Shown here: in pieces, positions 3,664 to 36,720 of the stretch
How positions within the stretch are numbered: the first letter of the stretch is position 1
Layout of the letters: every line of letters begins with the position of its first letter
Source: a virus
Direction: 5' to 3' (one strand)
Virus record (IMG/VR): IMGVR_UViG_3300027844_001132
Location: 1-54,056 of that record
Length of the DNA stretch: 54,056 nucleotides
Program-made: the position numbers and the translations under genes
The notes under the pieces: model-generated
The model's database searches: none
Told to the model about the DNA's origin: nothing
Seen by the model: only the letters and a program-made list of their open reading frames with translations

Positions 3664-5736
3664 ATGTCAGAAAATCTCCAAGAGAGACCCCCATTTTGCG
3701 ACACTCCCGGATTGTCCAAAGCTCCAGGGTCATTGGCTGCAAAGCAGTGCGGTGGAACAGATTCTATGGGTCAAGTGAAGCCTGATCGCCCTGACATAAG
3801 ATCCAAAGCTCTAACAGATACGGATGAGAAAAAGAAAAAGCTGCAGAAGCTAGGCCTTACAAGTCGTCCAAGTACCGAGGACTTTCAAAAATTTTTTAAT
3901 AAAGAAGCCAATTTGAATAATTATGTTAAAAAATATCAAATGAAAATGGGCAATAAAACTTCTACAGTAGACAAGGACGCATGGGTTGATGGCATCGGTG
4001 GACTGTCGAAAAAAGAAGCAAAAACTCTAAAACGTCAATTACAAGGACATACTAGAGAAGGCACAACAACCGTTCATAAGTTTAAGAAGGGTCAACCAGA
4101 TATTCAACTTGATCCACCTAGAGGCGGAAAGAAGTGGGGAAAGGGAGGAGTGAATGAAGACAGCAGAGACAAGTCAAAACCTGATCCTAAAGGTAGGAAG
4201 CATCCAGAAATTAAAAAAGATTCAGAGAAAGCAGTAGGACTCTTAAAGAAAAAGGGTATACCAGCAAAGTATGCTGTTTCGCAGTACTTTGGAGACAGAA
4301 TATATGTTCAAAGAGATATGGAAAAGAAAGCCAAAAAGATTATACCTAAAGATCTGCACCAATATGTTTTTGGTACAATAGATAATCCAGTACAAGCCGG
4401 CTTTCGGACAAATGAAGGTGTTGAGATTGATGAAGTTGATTCATCCGGCATAGATATGTATGATAATAAAAGAAAAGAATCAGAGATGAGGAAGAAGGCT
4501 AGAGAAACTCCTTCTTCTCCGGAAACTAAAAGAAAGCTTAAAATTGTAAGAGCTGGAGGAACTGTTAAACTTCCAGAAGGGCAAAAAGAAATGCAGTTCA
4601 TAAACAGTTTAAAAAGACCGCAGTATAGTATTAAAAATACAAAAACCGGTCAAAATTATAGTACAAGTAGATATCAGGATGATAAAAAATTAGATAAGAT
4701 TCGTAAAGGCGGTGGTGATCATAAACATGCTGCTCACTACAAGGATGGAAAAATGATAGATGAATCAGGCAGAACAATGAAGACTTTCGCTGAAGTTACA
4801 ACTGGTCTTTTAAAGCGCGCAGCGAAGCGAGCCGGTGATGAAGCCGAGACACAAAGAGACGCACAAGCTTGGGCTTTGAAGGTTCCTGGTAAAGGACACG
4901 CTTTTGGTGCTGCTGAAGCAGGTAAAAAGGCAGCAAAGAAAGAAAAACAAGCCGGAAAATTCAGTGCAGCCGTCGATGTTAGACAACGGGATACAGCTTT
5001 TAAAAAGGAAGATGTCATTGATGAAAAAGAAAGCGATTACGCTGACAAAATCGCTGCTTTTAAAAAGAAAGGTGGAAAAGTTGAAAAACAACCGGAAGGT
5101 CCAATTTCCAGAAGTTTGTTTAAAACCACAGTCGGAAGAGAAAAGCGGAGAAACCCAGGAAAGCAAGCTACCAGAGGTACTTTTTATGACGAAGTTGAGG
5201 TTAAAGAACTCGGACCAATCGGTGCGTTCGTTGCCAGAGCAGCAATAAAGCACGTAGCCAAGAAAGCAATAAAGAAAGCGACAGAAGATAAAGAAGATAA
5301 CGTCAACGAAGTTTCGAAAAAATTGTTACAACGCGCAGAGCAAGGAGCTAAAAAGAAAGCTGATGACCAAAGAGCTGTATCTAAAGTAGCCGCTTCAAGG
5401 GTTGGAGACACTAGTCAACCACCAGGACAAAATATTAAATCGAAACGTGCAGATTTCCAAGCAGCTAAGAAAGATTATCAAGCATTTAAATTCGGTGTAG
5501 CTGCTAAAAAGAAAGAAAGAGTTGATGAGAGTAATAAGCTCCAGGCTAACATGGCATTAGATGACGCTGGTATTAAAAGCTATTGGGAAGATGGTAAGCT
5601 ATGGGTAGATAAAAAAGATGTTGTAAAAGCTGAAAAGACCCTAACGAAGTCATTCAAAAAAGGCGGAGAACCACACATATATTATAAGGGTGGATTTCTT
5701 GGAGTGTGGAATAAGAAAAGGAAATTGACCGGATGA
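3664..5736 (+). CDS. Large Lys-rich probable head-interior protein
   Basis: This 690-residue protein is highly basic, low in hydrophobic residues and rich in Lys, Gly, Ala and Asp, so it is probably disordered or helical. The motif E(V)S/T--LLxRAxxxA occurs twice (residues about 376 and 543), and KQAGKFSAA follows the first copy. Both motifs also occur in the protein at 24464-25846. In T4-like phages such proteins are prohead-core or head-packaged proteins cut by the prohead protease. It starts a unit with two small genes bearing capsid-targeting-like N-termini. The assignment as a virion protein is inference. Confidence 0.5.
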   Translation: MSENLQERPPFCDTPGLSKAPGSLAAKQCGGTDSMGQVKPDRPDIRSKALTDTDEKKKKLQKLGLTSRPSTEDFQKFFNKEANLNNYVKKYQMKMGNKTSTVDKDAWVDGIGGLSKKEAKTLKRQLQGHTREGTTTVHKFKKGQPDIQLDPPRGGKKWGKGGVNEDSRDKSKPDPKGRKHPEIKKDSEKAVGLLKKKGIPAKYAVSQYFGDRIYVQRDMEKKAKKIIPKDLHQYVFGTIDNPVQAGFRTNEGVEIDEVDSSGIDMYDNKRKESEMRKKARETPSSPETKRKLKIVRAGGTVKLPEGQKEMQFINSLKRPQYSIKNTKTGQNYSTSRYQDDKKLDKIRKGGGDHKHAAHYKDGKMIDESGRTMKTFAEVTTGLLKRAAKRAGDEAETQRDAQAWALKVPGKGHAFGAAEAGKKAAKKEKQAGKFSAAVDVRQRDTAFKKEDVIDEKESDYADKIAAFKKKGGKVEKQPEGPISRSLFKTTVGREKRRNPGKQATRGTFYDEVEVKELGPIGAFVARAAIKHVAKKAIKKATEDKEDNVNEVSKKLLQRAEQGAKKKADDQRAVSKVAASRVGDTSQPPGQNIKSKRADFQAAKKDYQAFKFGVAAKKKERVDESNKLQANMALDDAGIKSYWEDGKLWVDKKDVVKAEKTLTKSFKKGGEPHIYYKGGFLGVWNKKRKLTG

Positions 5737-10540: not shown

Positions 10541-10589
10541 ATATCAACGCACTCTAGGTAACTCATTGAGGTTGTTGCGAAAGAAAAAC
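10541..10589 (+). promoter_or_regulatory. Conserved promoter-upstream box (copy 1)
   Basis: ATATCAACG, GGTAACTCATTGAG (10557-10570) and TTGCGAAAGAAAAAC (10575-10589) lie 50, 34 and 16 bases before the -35 box. The same three blocks at the same distances precede the promoter at 18833, and the last block alone precedes the one at 12240. It is probably an operator or activator site shared by early promoters. Confidence 0.65.
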
Positions 10590-10590
10590 C

Positions 10591-10619
10591 GTGACATTTC
10601 TCTTAAATAGTAGTATAAT
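10591..10619 (+). promoter_or_regulatory. Sigma70 promoter
   Basis: GTGACA (10591-10596) and TATAAT (10614-10619) with 17-base spacing. It is followed by ATATAGAGAATAAAG, an initial transcribed sequence repeated after the promoters at 33681 and 36595. It drives 10649 and following genes. Confidence 0.8.
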
Positions 10620-10648
10620 ATATATAGAGAATAAAGAGAGAGGACATT

Positions 10649-10843
10649 ATGAGAAGATTGAGTGAAATAGATAAAAGCGATTTAGATTTGTGTCAACCAC
10701 ATCGTGATTTGGTTGGTGCTTATCACACGTTCGTCGATGAGAATTACGACGACATCGGCAGAATTAGCTTAGCAGAGAGTAAGGCTGGAGGAGGTCCGTT
10801 TCTGGATCTCGAAGGTTATCTGTATCATATGGATGAATTATAA
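10649..10843 (+). CDS. Small acidic early protein
   Basis: The ATG follows AGAGAGAGGACATT. The 64-residue product is acidic (many Asp, Glu), with no recognised motif. First gene behind a sigma70 promoter, which suggests an early host-takeover role, but this is inference. Confidence 0.6.
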   Translation: MRRLSEIDKSDLDLCQPHRDLVGAYHTFVDENYDDIGRISLAESKAGGGPFLDLEGYLYHMDEL

Positions 10844-10864: not shown

Positions 10865-11233
10865 ATGAGTATTGAAGTACACGTACAGTCAGCAATACGT
10901 GAAAATTATGGTGCCCACGCATGGGACGGAATAGGCGAGTGCCCGCAGATGTGGAAGAATAAGAGTGGAGATAACTACATTATCTCAAATGCTCCATCTA
11001 TAGAAGACGCTGTAGATTTCGTTTACAGTTACATTGTTAATCCCCCTAATGAATATTTCACCGAAGAAATTCTTGGTGGAACAGAAGTCACTGAATACTT
11101 TCAAACTGAAATTGAGTGTTATACTAATGGTGAGATTTCACCAGTTCGTGTAGACTGGACTTCTCGTTTTGAAAAATATCCAACTAAGGTGATTTCCGAT
11201 ATGACCGCTGAACGAAAGAGGCTATATGCATAA
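10865..11233 (+). CDS. Unknown early protein
   Basis: The start at 10865 is preferred to 10853 because GAGAGAGATT lies directly before it. The 122-residue product contains HAWDGIGECPQMWKNKSG and a mixed alpha/beta pattern. Family unknown. It overlaps the next gene by 8 bases. Confidence 0.55.
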   Translation: MSIEVHVQSAIRENYGAHAWDGIGECPQMWKNKSGDNYIISNAPSIEDAVDFVYSYIVNPPNEYFTEEILGGTEVTEYFQTEIECYTNGEISPVRVDWTSRFEKYPTKVISDMTAERKRLYA

Positions 11234-11474
11234 TCAACCCGTGGACGAAATGTGTGATTCGTGCAATGAATTTTCAGACCGAATATCAGGTCAACTAGAT
11301 CAGCTAGATACGCTCTTGGCGATTTGGCAAAACAGTGACCGTTCAGATACAACTCTCTATAATAGACTGCAAAAAACCATAGAGCATCTGAACGGGGCTG
11401 TAGACATATATGAACAGGACGTAGCAGAGTTCGAACTGCTGCAGTATATACATGATGGTGAACTGCTTAATTGA
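11226..11474 (+). CDS. Unknown acidic helical protein with an N-terminal CxxC
   Basis: The 82-residue product starts MHNQPVDEMCDSCNEF and continues as a long acidic helix (heptad-like leucines). A single CxxC could bind metal in a dimer. It ends the small early operon before the long non-coding region. Confidence 0.55.
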   Translation: MHNQPVDEMCDSCNEFSDRISGQLDQLDTLLAIWQNSDRSDTTLYNRLQKTIEHLNGAVDIYEQDVAEFELLQYIHDGELLN

Positions 11475-11870
11475 AGTTCATCTCAACAGGGGCTTCGCGC
11501 TTCCATCTCTCTCGCCGCCGGAGTCCCTGTCTCATTACTATAGAGAGAGCGTCTATATAAGAACTGTATAGCTAAGCACTTATCCGAGAGGTCCGACCAG
11601 AGCTCCTACGTAGCCGTTTCGGCGAGCAAGCGTGAACATGCATCCTACGGGGACAGTAGTTATAAGTGTTATGGAGGACAATGTGAACGTGGGATAAGCT
11701 CAGAGCTACGCAATAGAATTGTCCTCTGCTATATCGTATTAGATAGCGAGCAGAGTAGTCCTCCTGCTCATCATGATTGAAGCAGAGGATTCAGTGTCGT
11801 CAAACTAGTGTAGCATATCTGCAACGCACATGACGCGGCTAGGCAAGTGCTAGCTACAAGCTTAGTAGAG
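11475..11870 (+). ncRNA. Candidate large structured non-coding RNA region
   Basis: No coding frame is present but many exact stems can be drawn in series: ACAGGG/CCCTGT (11486-11491 with 11525-11530), AGCACTTAT/ATAAGTGTT (11575-11583 with 11662-11670, one G-U), GAGGACAAT/ATTGTCCTC (11674-11682 with 11718-11726), CTCTGCT/AGCAGAG (11724-11730 with 11749-11755), an 8-bp stem with one bulge at 11760-11788, and TGTAGC/GCTACA (11809-11814 with 11853-11858). GC content is above the genome average. This density of adjacent helices is unusual for spacer DNA. Whether it is one RNA or several, and its ends, cannot be told by eye. Confidence 0.5.
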
Positions 11871-11898
11871 GTATGAAACGGTCAACACACTCTGCTCG

Positions 11899-11985
11899 TT
11901 TCTATAGAGAGATAAAAGAACACAACCATTAATACTATAGAGAGATAGATGTACACAGCAGCTGTATACTATAGAGAGATAGATT
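11899..11985 (+). repeat. Repeats of CTATAGAGAGATA
   Basis: TTCTATAGAGAGATAAAAG (11899), ATACTATAGAGAGATAGATG (11932) and ATACTATAGAGAGATAGATT (11966) are near-identical, the last two 34 bases apart. Related sites ACTATAGAGAGA at 11537 and CACTATAGAAAGAGA at 8850 also lie in non-coding DNA. They may be RNA start or processing sites, or ribosome-site-bearing leaders of tiny ORFs. Confidence 0.6.
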
Positions 11986-12031
11986 GACCCCCCCACCTGC
12001 AATAGAGTGTACCGTAATCGTCATAACCCTA

Positions 12032-12080
12032 TAGGCTTAGGCACGAGGCTATAACCTTAACCTAAAACAAAATTTTTTTT
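12032..12080 (+). terminator. Possible Rho-independent terminator
   Basis: TAGGCTTAGG (12032-12041) pairs with CCTTAACCTA (12055-12064) at 8 of 10 positions, followed after an A-rich gap by eight T residues (12073-12080). The gap weakens it as a terminator. It would end transcripts from the non-coding RNA region. Confidence 0.35.
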
Positions 12081-12239
12081 CTAATGCTAATTAACCAAAC
12101 CTCCGCATTCGGGTCACCTTTCTCCACGGCATACAGTTAGCTAGAGAGAGTCTGGACAGGCCTTGGCGTTCCTGCTTCCCCGTTACCTGCAAAGGACAGA
12201 GTCTCGGAAAATTTTTTTTTCATTTGCGAAAGAAAAACA
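12081..12239 (+). other. Spacer between possible terminator and promoter
   Basis: This stretch has no coding frame. It contains a nine-T run (12212-12220) and ends with TTGCGAAAGAAAAAC (12224-12238), the proximal block of the conserved promoter-upstream box. GC-rich blocks at 12140-12195 may fold but no clear long stem was found. Confidence 0.4.
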
Positions 12240-12268
12240 TTGACATTTTGCCTAGAATGTATTATAAT
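12240..12268 (+). promoter_or_regulatory. Sigma70 promoter, consensus boxes
   Basis: TTGACA (12240-12245) and TATAAT (12263-12268) with 17-base spacing, 49 bases before the HTH gene start. The -35 is preceded by the shared block TTGCGAAAGAAAAAC at the same distance as in the other early promoters. Confidence 0.85.
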
Positions 12269-12317
12269 AATAGAATATTATTTAAACAATTAACCAACAT
12301 CTAAGAAAAGATATATT

Positions 12318-13136
12318 ATGGCTAAAGCGAAAACATACAACTATAAAGGCAAAACTCTTTCGATGAAAGAATTAGCAGAGATCTTCAATCTTTCGTATTG
12401 TAGAATGAGTAATCTAATGCATAAGTTTAATCACGATGCGGCCGCAATTGCTGCTGACAGATCGGCAGAGGGTGCGAAACGGTCCGGAAAGAATGCAAAG
12501 AAATTTGCTGTGGATACTGCAGGGATGACTAAGATGACCGTAGCAGAGATTGCAAAAGTAACAGGATTCTCTAATGCAGCGATTAGCGGTAAGATAAAGC
12601 GTGGCGTCTGTGGACTAGCATTGTTAAAGAGTAAGAAGAAAAAAGGAGTCGCAACGAAAAAAATTGCAGTTCGGATGCAGACAACAACACGGAGTGATAA
12701 GAACTTACTAAGTAGACAAGCACAAAGCGATGTTGGAGAAGCTAAAGACTGTAGAGATATGGATAGACATGAGATCAGAAATGCAGTAGAGGACTATCTA
12801 GCAGCCGGTGGAAAAATACAGAAACTTGTTGCGGATGGAAATATAGATGGACAGAGCTGGAAGGACCAAGCAAAGAAGTCTTGGAATAAAAGAACTACAC
12901 TTGCATCGAAGCAGAAGAAGGCCGCCGCTGCCGCCGCAAAGAAAAAGGAAACAGTCGTTGCAGAAAAGGGAAAGATGGATGTAAATGATTTCATAAAGGA
13001 ACTAGAGAGTGAGAGAGATCAAAGGAGAGCCTATGGAGAAGTCCTACACTTAGCTGGATCAGGATTAGCGGCCTCTCCTATTCTCGATACGGATTTAGAA
13101 GTTAGCTTGCCCGATTTAGAAGTTTCTAAGGTTTAG
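12318..13136 (+). CDS. Basic protein with two helix-turn-helix-like segments
   Basis: The 272-residue protein is strongly basic. Residues about 13-37 (LSMKELAEIFNLSYCRMSNL) and about 73-96 (MTVAEIAKVTGFSNAAISGK) both look like HTH units with the typical A-x3-G/N-x-S spacing. A Lys/Ala-rich linker (about 190-215) and an acidic C-terminus follow. It has its own consensus promoter and is flanked by structured non-coding DNA, which suits a regulator or nucleoid-type protein. DNA binding is inferred; target sites could be the promoter boxes or iterons nearby. Confidence 0.55.
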   Translation: MAKAKTYNYKGKTLSMKELAEIFNLSYCRMSNLMHKFNHDAAAIAADRSAEGAKRSGKNAKKFAVDTAGMTKMTVAEIAKVTGFSNAAISGKIKRGVCGLALLKSKKKKGVATKKIAVRMQTTTRSDKNLLSRQAQSDVGEAKDCRDMDRHEIRNAVEDYLAAGGKIQKLVADGNIDGQSWKDQAKKSWNKRTTLASKQKKAAAAAAKKKETVVAEKGKMDVNDFIKELESERDQRRAYGEVLHLAGSGLAASPILDTDLEVSLPDLEVSKV

Positions 13137-13171: not shown

Positions 13172-13286
13172 TAGACCACTAATAAATAATAGCCTACGGC
13201 TAAACGAATAGAGAGGTATGGGTAAACTTATAGTGTGCGCGCTGCCGGCGAGTGGACTTCCGAGAGAAGATAAGATGATTTAAAAT

Positions 13287-13446
13287 TGTGGGGTAAACGA
13301 CCACCAAAGCCAGGTCCGGAGGGACGGACTCCTAATTCCTGAGAGTGAGTACGTGATCTACCTAGATGAAGTTAAGAGGTTCTATCAATAAGGCCCACCG
13401 TACGTGCAACGGGATGAGGATAGAATAGTCTAGGCTCTGCCCCACA
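13287..13446 (+). ncRNA. Candidate structured RNA directly upstream of tRNA-Asn
   Basis: TGTGGGG (13287-13293) and CCCCACA (13440-13446) form a 7-bp closing helix over 146 bases. Inside are GTCCG/CGGAC (13314-13318 with 13325-13329) and TTCTATC/GATAGAA (13380-13386 with 13419-13425). No gene fits the 13137-13455 gap. The helix ends 9 bases before the tRNA, so the two were probably co-transcribed and processed. I do not recognise an RNA family. Confidence 0.45.
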
Positions 13447-13455
13447 TGTTTTAAA

Positions 13456-18782: not shown

Positions 18783-18831
18783 ATATCAACGAACTCTTGG
18801 TAACTTATTGAGATTATTGCGAAACAAAAAC
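18783..18831 (+). promoter_or_regulatory. Conserved promoter-upstream box (copy 2)
   Basis: ATATCAACG, GGTAACTTATTGAG (18799-18812) and TTGCGAAACAAAAAC (18817-18831) repeat the blocks at 10541-10589 at the same distances from the -35. AATTATTTTC occurs twice just upstream (18747-18770 area). Confidence 0.65.
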
Positions 18832-18832
18832 G

Positions 18833-18861
18833 TTGACATGTTGAGCTAGATATGTTATAAT
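18833..18861 (+). promoter_or_regulatory. Sigma70 promoter, consensus boxes
   Basis: TTGACA (18833-18838) and TATAAT (18856-18861) with 17-base spacing, followed by GTAGAGAATAAAA. It probably drives the long run of small genes from 18910 onward. Confidence 0.85.
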
Positions 18862-18909
18862 ATAAGTAGAGAATAAAATAATAACCTAAACAAGGAGAGA
18901 AATAAGCGG

Positions 18910-32658: not shown

Positions 32659-33516
32659 TCAGAATTCGAATTTTACATTCAGGGCACTTATAAGTCTGGT
32701 AAGACCTATTCCACCACCATATCTTGGAAAAAATTTATGACTTAAGAATTCTTTCAATTCTTTTTCTACTCGCGCTTCGCCGAATAATTTAAATAATAAT
32801 TCAGCATATTCTCCATCGGAAATTGTATGAAACTGTTCTCTCATCTCTTCCGGATCAGCAGACCTTTCAGCGGAACCGATAGTTTCCATGCCACCCATAA
32901 TTACATCACATTTGTTAGCAAGATCACCTACTTTTTTCATATTCCAAAAGGGGGAAGTATGATAAGGAAATTGAGTTATAAATCCAACACCGGAAGGATG
33001 AGAATCAGATATCATTTGTTCGTGCTCATGATCTAATTCTTCACAATCAAATTCCTGACACCACATACCATAACTTTTTTCAGGAAATGGTTCGGCAACG
33101 CGATCAGGAGGTATGAAACCTAAGTGGTAAATTAAATCTCTTTCCATATTAAGTAAGTCCTGAAAGTCACCAGGTGCTTCAAACTCAAACATGGGAAATA
33201 TAACTTCATGTCTGCCTTCGACAGGATTCTGTTCTTGTCTATAAGATGTTGAAACACAGAATACACCTTTTAAATCCGGATTATTTAATAGCTCGTATTC
33301 CAACCACATTTGACCGGTTTGGGGTAAAGGCCATATGATGTCATTATAATTATATGTTGCGACAGTTGTAGGATCTTCGCAAGCAGCTAATATGGATAAT
33401 CTGTTTTGGGTGTGAACTTCGAGAAAACCACGGGAATGAAAAAAATTACGAAGACGGGTAACGGCATTGTCAAAATCTGCGGGTATAATTAAGCTAGTCA
33501 GTTTGTTCCTTTCCAA
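32659..33516 (-). CDS. AsnRS/AsnA-like class II synthetase core without anticodon domain
   Basis: The 285-residue product is a bare class II catalytic core. Motif 1 is in FDNAVTRLRNFFHSRGFLEV (residues 15-34). PLPQTGQMWLEYEL matches the LPQSPQL helix of AsnRS/AspRS. STSYRQE with GRHEVIFPMFEFE is motif 2 (R93), and GGGIGLTRLI is motif 3 (R274). ETIGSAERS mirrors EIIGGSQR of AsnRS. GGGIG with S/T-R also occurs in AsnA. So it may aminoacylate a tRNA or make asparagine. Listed start is TTG 33516; an ATG at 33526 with GGAGAG is out of frame by one base in a 7-T run. It is followed by the odd GUU tRNA. Confidence 0.8.
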   Translation of the reverse strand: MERNKLTSLIIPADFDNAVTRLRNFFHSRGFLEVHTQNRLSILAACEDPTTVATYNYNDIIWPLPQTGQMWLEYELLNNPDLKGVFCVSTSYRQEQNPVEGRHEVIFPMFEFEAPGDFQDLLNMERDLIYHLGFIPPDRVAEPFPEKSYGMWCQEFDCEELDHEHEQMISDSHPSGVGFITQFPYHTSPFWNMKKVGDLANKCDVIMGGMETIGSAERSADPEEMREQFHTISDGEYAELLFKLFGEARVEKELKEFLSHKFFPRYGGGIGLTRLISALNVKFEF

Positions 33517-33665: not shown

Positions 33666-33680
33666 AAGAAATCAAATATG

Positions 33681-33709
33681 TTGACATGTTGCGCTATAAA
33701 TGGTATAAT
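33681..33709 (+). promoter_or_regulatory. Sigma70 promoter, consensus boxes
   Basis: TTGACA (33681-33686) and TATAAT (33704-33709), 17-base spacing. The 50 bases 33676-33725 recur at 36590-36639 with a single change. Drives 33764 and the VWA/zincin gene. Confidence 0.88.
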
Positions 33710-33763
33710 ATATATAGAGAATAAAGAAAGGGAATAATCCCATAACCAAATGAGAGAGAAATA

Positions 33764-34016: not shown

Positions 34017-36524
34017 ATGGCTGAATTAATAGAACAAAAAGGAATTTTAGCAAAACTCATGGCGTCAGAAAATATTACTGTGCGCCACGCTAAAGTTCCA
34101 ACCGCCGGATTCGACCCGAAAGGCAGAACATTAATTTTACCGATTCTCAAAGAGATGGAAGGTGAGGTTTATGACTTGTTTGTTTGTCACGAAGTCGGAC
34201 ACGCTTTAAATACACCAGCTAATGGTTGGCACAAGGTTATTGCAAAAGAAGGACCAAATTATAAAGGTTTTCTGAACGTTGTGGAAGATGCCAGGATCGA
34301 AAAATTAATCAAAAGAAAGTTTGCAGGTGCCGGAAAGGCGATGAGCAAGGGATATAAAGTCTTGGTACATGATAGAGATTTTTTCGGGCTCAAGCAATAC
34401 AATATAGATATCAATTCTGCCTCACTAATTGATAAACTCAATATTCATTTTAAAGGTGGTCCCTTGGAGAATGTTCAATTCACCGAAGCAGAGAAACCAT
34501 TTGTTGATAAGATGGCAGAACTTGAGACTTGGGAAGATGTTGAACAGCTGACCAAGGAACTTTGGGACTATGCAGAAGAAAACGAACAAGAACAACAAAC
34601 ACAGCCAGATGATTCTTTTATGGATCAATATTATCAAGAAGACGAAGATGAAGAAGATAGTGATGATGAAGAAGGTGATTACGAATTTAATGAAACAGAT
34701 TTTCAGGATCAGTCTAAAGAGGAAACAGAGAAAGATGATTGTGACAAGCCGGTAGATAAATGTGATAATGAAGGAACTGATGGAGATCAGGAAGAGGATC
34801 AAAAAGAAGAAGGTGATGGAGATCAAGAATCTTCTCAGTCTGAATCAGATGAAGAAAAAGAGGAAGAAGGAGAAAAGCTGGGTGCCGGAACAGCAGGAGG
34901 ATATGATAAGTGGTATAAAGATGATCCGTGGAAATGGAAACATGAACCGAAATCCTTAACCGATCAGAATTTTCGTGAACATGAGGATCAGCTAGTTCAT
35001 GAAGATGCACTAGATTTGAAATATTATAATTCACCAACAATTGATTTAAAAAGTGAAAATTTGATTATTAATTATAAAGAACTTTTAAAAAGAACTCAGG
35101 AGGCAATAGATGAACGCAGGAATTATTTGATAGAGACGAAGAGAGAAGCAGAAGCCGAAAGAGAAGAATCATTAGCATTTGGATATGCCCGCGAATATTT
35201 GAAATATATTGATAAAGAAAATAAACCAGTTGTTAATTATCTTGTTAAAGAATTTGAAATGAAAAAGAAAGCAGCTGAATATAAAAGGTCGATGACTGCA
35301 AACACAGGTGCCATATCTCTTTCAGATATTCATAAGTACAAATATTGTGATAATATTTTTAAGAAAATTACGATTGTTCCTGAAGGTAAGAGTCACGGAC
35401 TTTATTTTTTAATGGATTGGTCAGGTTCTATGAGTGATAAAATGATTCCAACTTTGAATCAATTATTTCAATTAATAGATTTCTGCAGGAAATGTAATAT
35501 CGCTCATGAGGCATATGCTTTTGTTGATTACAGTTTTGATGAAGAAGGAAAAGAAAAAGAAACTTTTGGGCATCCTTATAAAGAACAATTAGGCGATTTG
35601 GCAATAGGAGATAAATCTACTCAATTAATTGAAATATTTTCTAATAAAATGTCCAGTAGGGAATTTAAGTCTCAACGTGAAAATCTTCTTTTATCCATAC
35701 TTCGATGTGATAGAGATTTTGCAAATGCGTACTGGTTAGAAGAAAGAAAAAATAAAGTAATTTATAGAAATAAAATGACTGGTAGAAATACCAAAATTCC
35801 GAAAGATACAATCCCTTCTTTAATTTTTGACACTTGGGGGGTGGAAAAAGGATGTCGAACATCTTGGGAATGGAATTCAATAGCACGAGCGATTAATTTT
35901 CCGCTACATCGTCTTTGCGGAACTCCTTTGAATGATGCAATCATGATAAGTTCAGTAAATGTTAAAAGATTCCAAAGAGAAAATAATTTAGATATTGTTA
36001 ACACAATTATTCTTTCAGACGGAGAATCTAATTCATCTCATAAAACTTTCGTGACAAGAGAAGGTAGCGGAGATGAACTTTTTACAGAACGAATTGAAAC
36101 TCGTGATTCTAACATCAGGTTGGTTGATAAAGAAACAAAAAAAGTTTTTGAATGGACCGCCTGTCATGGATTTCGTCAAACAGAAAATTTTATAAATTAT
36201 TTTAAATATAAGACTGGTTCAAACGTTTTAGGATTTTTTCTTACAACTTCTTCTGATGATGCAGGACGCATGGTCGGTTGGAACCAATGGCAAGATAGAA
36301 AATCGGATTACAATCGAAACGGATACATGATCGTAGATGATCATGGATATGATGAACTTTATGTAATCAAACAACATGCCTCCGTTTTGATGGAGGATGA
36401 AATAAATATTGATACTAATAAAGTTAATTCAACAGCTTCTTTGACTAAGGCATTCAAAAAATTTCAGAAAGGAAAATTAGAAAAAAGGATAATGCTTCAA
36501 AGATTTGCGGAAATGGTTGCTTAA
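34017..36524 (+). CDS. Zincin-VWA protein, CobT-like
   Basis: In this 835-residue protein the N-terminus holds HEVGH (residues 58-62) and VEDARIE (89-95), a zinc-metallopeptidase-like pair. An acidic Asp/Glu/Ser/Gln region follows (about 190-290), as in CobT/ChlD linkers. A VWA domain starts near residue 460 with DWSGSM (about 467-472), the DxSxS MIDAS that binds Mg or Mn. IILSDGESN is a later VWA strand. It pairs with the AAA+ protein at 36721, as CobT with CobS or VWA proteins with MoxR. The cobalt chelation role is unlikely without the large CobN subunit. A remodelling or protease complex is more likely. Confidence 0.8.
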   Translation: MAELIEQKGILAKLMASENITVRHAKVPTAGFDPKGRTLILPILKEMEGEVYDLFVCHEVGHALNTPANGWHKVIAKEGPNYKGFLNVVEDARIEKLIKRKFAGAGKAMSKGYKVLVHDRDFFGLKQYNIDINSASLIDKLNIHFKGGPLENVQFTEAEKPFVDKMAELETWEDVEQLTKELWDYAEENEQEQQTQPDDSFMDQYYQEDEDEEDSDDEEGDYEFNETDFQDQSKEETEKDDCDKPVDKCDNEGTDGDQEEDQKEEGDGDQESSQSESDEEKEEEGEKLGAGTAGGYDKWYKDDPWKWKHEPKSLTDQNFREHEDQLVHEDALDLKYYNSPTIDLKSENLIINYKELLKRTQEAIDERRNYLIETKREAEAEREESLAFGYAREYLKYIDKENKPVVNYLVKEFEMKKKAAEYKRSMTANTGAISLSDIHKYKYCDNIFKKITIVPEGKSHGLYFLMDWSGSMSDKMIPTLNQLFQLIDFCRKCNIAHEAYAFVDYSFDEEGKEKETFGHPYKEQLGDLAIGDKSTQLIEIFSNKMSSREFKSQRENLLLSILRCDRDFANAYWLEERKNKVIYRNKMTGRNTKIPKDTIPSLIFDTWGVEKGCRTSWEWNSIARAINFPLHRLCGTPLNDAIMISSVNVKRFQRENNLDIVNTIILSDGESNSSHKTFVTREGSGDELFTERIETRDSNIRLVDKETKKVFEWTACHGFRQTENFINYFKYKTGSNVLGFFLTTSSDDAGRMVGWNQWQDRKSDYNRNGYMIVDDHGYDELYVIKQHASVLMEDEINIDTNKVNSTASLTKAFKKFQKGKLEKRIMLQRFAEMVA

Positions 36525-36594
36525 TGCAAGTTTGTTTTACAACAATTTCAACTGGTTATAAGGAACACATTGATATTATTGATAATCAAATATG

Positions 36595-36623
36595 TTGCCA
36601 TGTTGCGCTATAAATGGTATAAT
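36595..36623 (+). promoter_or_regulatory. Sigma70 promoter, near copy of 33681
   Basis: TTGCCA (36595-36600) and TATAAT (36618-36623) with 17-base spacing. Upstream, TTGATATTATTGATAATCAAATATG resembles the 33681 upstream DNA. Drives the AAA+ gene. Confidence 0.85.
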
Positions 36624-36639
36624 ATATATAGAGAATAAA

Positions 36640-36720
36640 AAAAGACCAGCGACAACTGCTGAAGCGAAGAGTTGGGTGGGATGGCGGTAAACAAACAATA
36701 ATAATAACGAGAGAGGTTAT
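36640..36720 (+). promoter_or_regulatory. Structured leader of the AAA+ gene
   Basis: About 80 bases of untranslated leader contain CAACT/AGTTG around GCTGAAGCGAAG and a G-rich block, followed by GAGAGAGGTTAT before the ATG. A small structure is possible; no known riboswitch is recognised. Confidence 0.35.

Follow-up and report, generated by a model that had tools for sequence, protein, structure and literature searches.

What is encoded by the gene-free stretch at positions 11475-11870 of the marine viral DNA analysed here, a single stretch of 54,056 nucleotides which we call the window? Read from its letters alone, it had been taken for a non-coding region of consecutive perfect stems, richer in GC than the nearby genes and possibly a large structured phage RNA. 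No plus-strand ORF of at least 40 aa lies between 11474, where an 82-aa ORF ends, and 12318, where a 272-aa ORF starts, which bears out the non-coding character of the region. The stems are also there: P1 has 12 bp, P2 and P3 have 9 bp each, the long-range P4 has 10 bp, P5 has 4+5 bp and P7 has 6 bp. GC content is 0.46-0.50 across 11400-11899 vs approximately 0.31-0.44 in the genes immediately upstream, as had been noticed, although the downstream gene is comparable in places. The proposed limits, on the other hand, cut the structured region short at both ends, since the full element spans approximately 11,335-12,080 (Table 1). We regard a structured RNA at this locus as very likely.

Folding energy alone does not prove such a structure. 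When the whole region was folded, a check proposed together with the sequence-only reading, the plus strand reached -125.9 kcal/mol vs -118.5 kcal/mol for shuffled sequences, which is only slightly below the shuffles (z -1.2, 12 of 100 shuffles being equally good), and the minus strand was no better than its shuffles (z +0.7). Several members of the family likewise fold weakly as single sequences (z -0.7 to -3.8). With scores as weak as these, folding energy was rejected as proof, and it is conservation and compensatory changes that decide.

Relatives sharing the locus were found through the 272-aa protein, whose gene lies 3' of the element in all four phages: the viral contigs L002, L003 and L008 show an identical gene order. 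Over 10.8 kb another contig, L001, matches the window with 99.98% identity and is therefore practically the same virus. In the gap, L002 and L003 share about 80% identity with the window, near-perfect blocks being interrupted by hypervariable loops. L008 is highly diverged and its automatic alignment breaks down in places; its stems were located by eye and then checked. Covariation across these relatives, the other proposed check, supports a large structured phage RNA, as stems are preserved by double changes. P1, which is CAGGGGCUUCG/CGGAGUCCCUG in the window, is CAGGUGCAACG/CGUUGCACCUG in L008 with pairing kept. P3 changes from GAGGACAAU/AUUGUCCUC in the window to GAGGAUAAU/AUUAUCCUC in L003 and UGAGCUGAG/CUCAGCUCA in L008, P4 from CGAGCAGAG/CUCUGCUCG to GGAGCAGGA/UCCUGCUCC in L008, and in P2 and P7 both sides are altered in relatives while the pairing is retained. 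The outer stems P1, P4 and P7 still pair in L008 through compensatory changes. Counts of double changes in P3 and P4 across the four phages depend on the alignment register and are inflated; by eye, with the shared GAG or GAGCAG aligned, there are about three to four in each.

Table 1. Features of the element and its upstream region, in window coordinates.
Feature	Position	Strand	Observation
Candidate sigma-70-like promoter, GTGACA-17-TATAAT	10591..10619	+	consensus match, 11/12 positions
82-aa ORF	11226..11474	+	kept in L002, L003 and L008; second half overlaps the structured element
Stem P0, 10 bp, within the 82-aa ORF	11339..11395	+	two positions changed on both sides, four phages
Hairpin P1, 12 bp, loop UUCCAUCUCUCUCGCC	11486..11530	+	three double changes
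Candidate pseudoknot, CUCUCUC (11507-11513) with GAGAGAG (11543-11549)	11507..11549	+	7 bp possible in 4/4
Core RNA, three-way junction	11566..11734	+	covariance model R1, fold, pair counts
Core stem P2	11575..11670	+	double changes in 5/8 pairs, ten members
Core stem P3	11674..11726	+	double changes in 4/9 pairs, ten members
P3 apical loop RAUAAGCUCAGAG, 13 nt	11693..11705	+	columns invariant or nearly so, ten aligned members
Long-range stem P4, enclosing P5-P7	11747..11898	+	10 bp kept in all four phages
Hairpin P5, loop with palindrome AUCAUGAU	11759..11789	+	one double change among window, L002 and L003
Hairpin P7, 27 nt, loop palindrome GCUAGC (11849-11854)	11839..11865	+	two double changes
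Three CTATAGAGAGATA repeats	11902..11981	+	number and sequence differ among relatives
Conserved 3' segment, CCCCCCACCUGnAAUA ... CCCUAUAGGCUUAG ... AAAAUUUUUUUU	11989..12080	+	kept in all four phages

The candidate promoter at 10591, whose module recurs elsewhere in the genome, would serve the operon leading into the RNA. Promoter-like modules of the type TTGACAT-17-TATAAT are dispersed in the window (10560-10650, 12205-12300, 18790-18870, 33680-33740 and 36505-36650), several of them with ATATATAGAGAATAAA next. A promoter inside the 82-aa ORF (11335) was also considered and rejected; its -35 hexamer, judged by eye, is not conserved, and its use would exclude half of stem P0 from the RNA. In the second half of this ORF synonymous codons are kept, in comparison with L008, at 0.63-0.66 vs 0.37-0.44 in the neighbouring 126-aa ORF (p 0.008-0.03), while among the close members the difference between the two ORFs is not significant. 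All four T4-like members (the window, L002, L003 and L008) have the same UC-rich loop in P1. Evidence for the putative pseudoknot of this loop with GAGAGAG is weak, the sequence being repetitive.

The core of the element, approximately 150 nt, is laid out in the window as a closing stem UAUAGC/GCUAUA, UAA, P2, UUAUG, P3 and UGCUA, and the P3 loop is its most conserved part. Scanning the pattern of this loop, GRATAAGCTCAGAGCTA, against viral contigs gave 18 stretches, most of which, judged by their flanks, are not chance matches. L116, L117/L119, L120/L129, L121, L126, L127 and L128 share the arrangement AUAGC-UAA-P2-UUAUG-P3-UGCUA, slightly varied, and their stems covary. A DNA pattern, ACCTG...CCTATAGGCTTAG, was also tried on viral contigs, and its new matches were dismissed as chance from their context. 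The covariance model R1 was built from ten members with L008 left out. The window, which has the closing stem AUAGC/GCUAU and all the other parts of the layout, scores 139 bits as a training member. R1 recovered the held-out L008 where synteny predicts it, at 4236-4371 (49.7 bits; E 2.9e-9 in 0.75 Mb). Outside the training members, the only other matches in the 0.75-Mb set were L013, nearly identical to L008 at the match, and a hairpin standing alone in L103 (E 5e-6); L122 and L125 have hairpin matches similar to that of L103. L008 has no P3 loop sequence and its closing stem is poorly kept, which means that the loop is not universal.

Double changes occur in 11 of the 32 predicted pairs of the ten-member core alignment. 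Paired cells amount to 97.5% vs 89.5% in shuffled and 30-48% in slid alignments, and the covariation score is 0.340 vs 0.171 shuffled (reached by none of 500) and 0.08-0.10 slid. Folding energy of the alignment is -27.8 vs -5.6 +/- 2.6 for shuffled columns, and weaker, -19.1, on the minus strand. All these controls ignore kinship, and the structure is taken from the same alignment. Because L116, L126, L127 and L128 are close relatives, as are the window, L002 and L003, the core is represented by about five independent lineages, in addition to L008. Two G-U pairs (columns 110-164 and 128-144) are fixed in all ten members, which indicates an RNA of the plus strand.

The positions of the core relatives agree with the proximity to phage tRNAs to which the earlier reading had pointed, since in other phages the stand-alone cores adjoin tRNAs. 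In L121 a tRNA (Tyr by anticodon) precedes the core by 3 nt and in L116, L126, L127 and L128 one (Asp by sequence) follows it at a distance of 4-8 nt, while in the lineage of the window the nearest tRNA, a tRNA-Asn, is 1.6 kb away. Among the proteins of the window virus are a DNA polymerase, clamp loader, UvsX-like recombinase and helicase of T4 type; Gp2.5 and a T7-type RNA polymerase are encoded in L121, and L120 has a primase together with a Sak4-like protein. Judged by these genes the carriers are unrelated, with T4-like, T7-like and Sak4/primase phage backgrounds. The presence of the core beside tRNA genes in unrelated ocean viruses looks like the mark of an undescribed RNA family common to different viruses.

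Isolated hairpins with the RAUAAGCUCAGAG loop were observed in L103 (232-280), L122 (approximately 1070-1130) and L125 (approximately 230-290). Their stem is different yet paired, and in L125 it is followed by a U-run, like a terminator. That the loop is kept on a different paired stem argues for its contact with a conserved partner. A shorter RNA, AAAGACC-UAA-GCAUUCU ... AGAAUGU-UAUG ... GGUCUUU with a U-run, is situated at 724-990 of L103 and 1-235 of L125; it shares the layout closing stem-UAA-P2-UUAUG and is perhaps a distant relative of the core.

In the outer domains 3' of the core, three members have GCUAGC as the palindrome of the P7 loop; L008, in which no counterpart of P5 was recognised, has CCCGGG. 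Besides the three repeats listed in Table 1, a further CTATAGAGAGA copy is found at 11538. The 3' segment, ending with AAAAUUUUUUUU at about 12,080, is likely the RNA 3' end; a simple scan scored no terminator in 11989..12080. The perfect promoter of the 272-aa gene, at 12240, comes after this presumed end.

Neither GOLLD nor ROOL had been recognised from the letters, and this held: Rfam cmscan of the window region and relatives, at gathering as well as permissive thresholds, found neither these nor another family. At the gathering threshold only tRNA was reported in the window and the relatives searched, and permissive thresholds added chance matches. A blastn search with four cores, the L103 RNA and a second RNA of the window (described below) against 50,697 phage records gave no convincing match, and R1, run with filters off against the T4 tRNA region, gave 2.2 bits at best (E 1.3, not significant). 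The loop pattern had 31 matches in the genome collection, in unrelated contexts, where bacterial loci yielded R1 fragments only (E 0.12 or worse). A radical-SAM protein scan of the same collection found no relative, and phage C48C1 has a relative of the 126-aa protein but not the core. GOLLD, a large structured RNA of phages that is often situated near tRNAs, consists of one part that is conserved and one that is less so, and ROOL is a large phage RNA often near tRNA islands and without known protein partner (PMC12286853). Like GOLLD, the element is large, structured and near tRNA genes and combines a conserved core with a more variable rest; it differs in that Rfam searches relaxed to E 5-10 still gave no match, and in that its conserved core is only about 150 nt and exists alone. 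It resembles ROOL as a large phage RNA near tRNAs, but again there is no Rfam match and the conserved part is far smaller. T4 RNAC (139 nt) and RNAD (119 nt), annotated small stable RNAs of a size like that of the core, adjoin tRNA-Arg in the T4 tRNA cluster, which is comparable with the 3-8 nt between cores and tRNAs in L116, L121, L126, L127 and L128. Their predicted folds, however, are different, and R1 revealed no homologous sequence or structure. Biological roles of RNAC and RNAD are unknown (PMC3014915). From the lack of match to the Rfam GOLLD and ROOL models or to RNAC/RNAD, together with tRNA adjacency, the element is best read as an apparently undescribed RNA family of a known kind, the structured phage RNAs near tRNA genes.

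Taken together, the explanation that we favour, and hold to be reasonably probable, is a phage structured ncRNA whose core is shared beside tRNAs, enlarged in the T4-like lineage, released and trans-acting. Its secondary structure, conservation, spread among phages and tRNA adjacency are seen in the sequences; that it is expressed and processed, acts in trans and may dimerise we infer. Position of the core beside tRNAs suggests that it would be released by the enzymes which trim tRNA and mRNA precursors; release from precursors followed by action in trans, a set-up resembling that of the T4 tRNA-cluster RNAs, is somewhat better than an even prospect. The core would then present its nearly invariant 13-nt P3 loop to a conserved partner. 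In the T4-like lineage it would have grown at its two ends to approximately 600-750 nt, by the P1 hairpin with the UC-rich loop, which possibly pairs with the downstream GAGAGA, on one side and by the long-range P4 enclosing palindromic loops, which could let two copies kiss, on the other. Weak single-sequence folding, the small number of independent core lineages, the missing P3 loop and poorly kept closing stem in L008 and the distance of the tRNA in the window all speak against this explanation, and so does the search for an antisense partner of the P3 loop, which was negative for E. coli rRNA and for three tRNAs. The conserved loops gave no compelling antisense site in E. coli rRNA and tRNAs in 20 comparisons, the best being 8 nt between the 3' segment and a tRNA, which 3 of 100 shuffles equalled, and 9 nt between P2 and 16S (4 of 100).

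A different emphasis would make the whole element a self-associating ornate RNA like GOLLD and ROOL, with the palindromic loops of P7 and P5 kissing to form a dimer or a larger RNA-only particle. In OLE and GOLLD, changes from one palindrome to another have been used to argue for symmetric contacts between molecules (cryo-EM of GOLLD, ROOL and OLE, PMC12286853), and the replacement of GCUAGC by CCCGGG in P7 is such a change; size and tRNA proximity are also alike. Two palindrome states are suggestive rather than proof, the P5 palindrome has no recognised counterpart in L008 and the minimal core members do not have palindromic domains, and self-association may thus be entertained as a minority possibility. 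It returns in a bolder form of the favoured explanation, which we put forward with some reserve as rather unlikely: a portable RNA gene, horizontally shared by T4-like, T7-like and other marine phages, whose nearly invariant 13-nt loop would engage a conserved host component and which here would have become an ornate RNA that self-associates through palindromic kissing loops. The element could also be an antisense regulator, its P1 UC-rich loop pairing with GAGAGAG before phage start codons and restrained by GAGAGA copies in the same RNA. GAGAGAG occurs 3-9 nt before ATG eight times in the window vs none in the reversed control, is enriched in L002 and L003 too, and lies in the ribosome-binding zone of 6 of 87 ORFs vs a mean of about one at random positions; the P1 loop, moreover, is the same in all four phages. 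The motif, however, is also present in the related contigs L102, L103 and L104 (fragments), where no hairpin like P1 was seen; being purine-rich and placed ahead of start codons, it may be nothing more than a ribosome-binding site; and regulation of this kind would be confined to the T4-like lineage and leave the core unexplained. We consider it unlikely.

Location at the end of the operon with the candidate promoter at 10591, overlap with the 82-aa ORF and the 272-aa gene following in all four phages could alternatively point to a cis-acting mRNA element, for instance one that stabilises the 3' end or serves that gene as a riboswitch-like leader. The gene, however, has its own promoter past the presumed RNA 3' end, and in other phages the core is situated among tRNAs and different genes, which makes cis action improbable. 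Inverted repeats and movement between phages would be expected as well of an origin, packaging or recombination site acting as DNA, but the fixed G-U pairs in all core members and the better fold of the plus strand indicate RNA, and long single-stranded segments are conserved on one strand; this explanation is very hard to maintain.

To our knowledge no settled function exists for the structured RNAs near phage tRNA genes, such as T4 RNAC/RNAD, GOLLD and ROOL. The favoured explanation offers a sharper experimental handle, as the core is much alike across unrelated phage types and its loop is nearly invariant: the minimal (approximately 150 nt) and enlarged (approximately 600-750 nt) forms can be compared, and the loop can be mutated or used as bait. 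The family also suggests a route from a small phage RNA to a large ornate one.

Several other observations were made in the window. GAGAGAG a few bases before start codons (e.g. at 10636, 19179, 33752 and 36709) is strongly strand-biased in the window and related contigs and may represent an unusual signal for ribosome binding or regulation. The 272-aa protein (12318-13136) has two helix-turn-helix-like segments and a short stretch like the SutA RNA-polymerase-binding domain (E 2.7e-5, below the Pfam cut-off). An 82-84-aa ORF of L002 and L003, which has a longer form in L008, seems to be interrupted in the window at approximately 13200-13290. Just upstream of tRNA-Asn, at 13283-13447, lies a second conserved non-coding RNA, GUGGGGUAAACGAC ... 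CUCUGCCCCAC, present in L002, L003 and L008 and possibly in L103 (2330-2535). It has no Rfam match and is probably structured, with double changes in 5 of 29 predicted pairs and no net covariation support. On the minus strand, 32659-33516 encodes a protein like class II aminoacyl-tRNA synthetases of the D/K/N type (PF00152, E 9e-18), and this synthetase-like protein and tRNA-Asn are thus found in the same phage.
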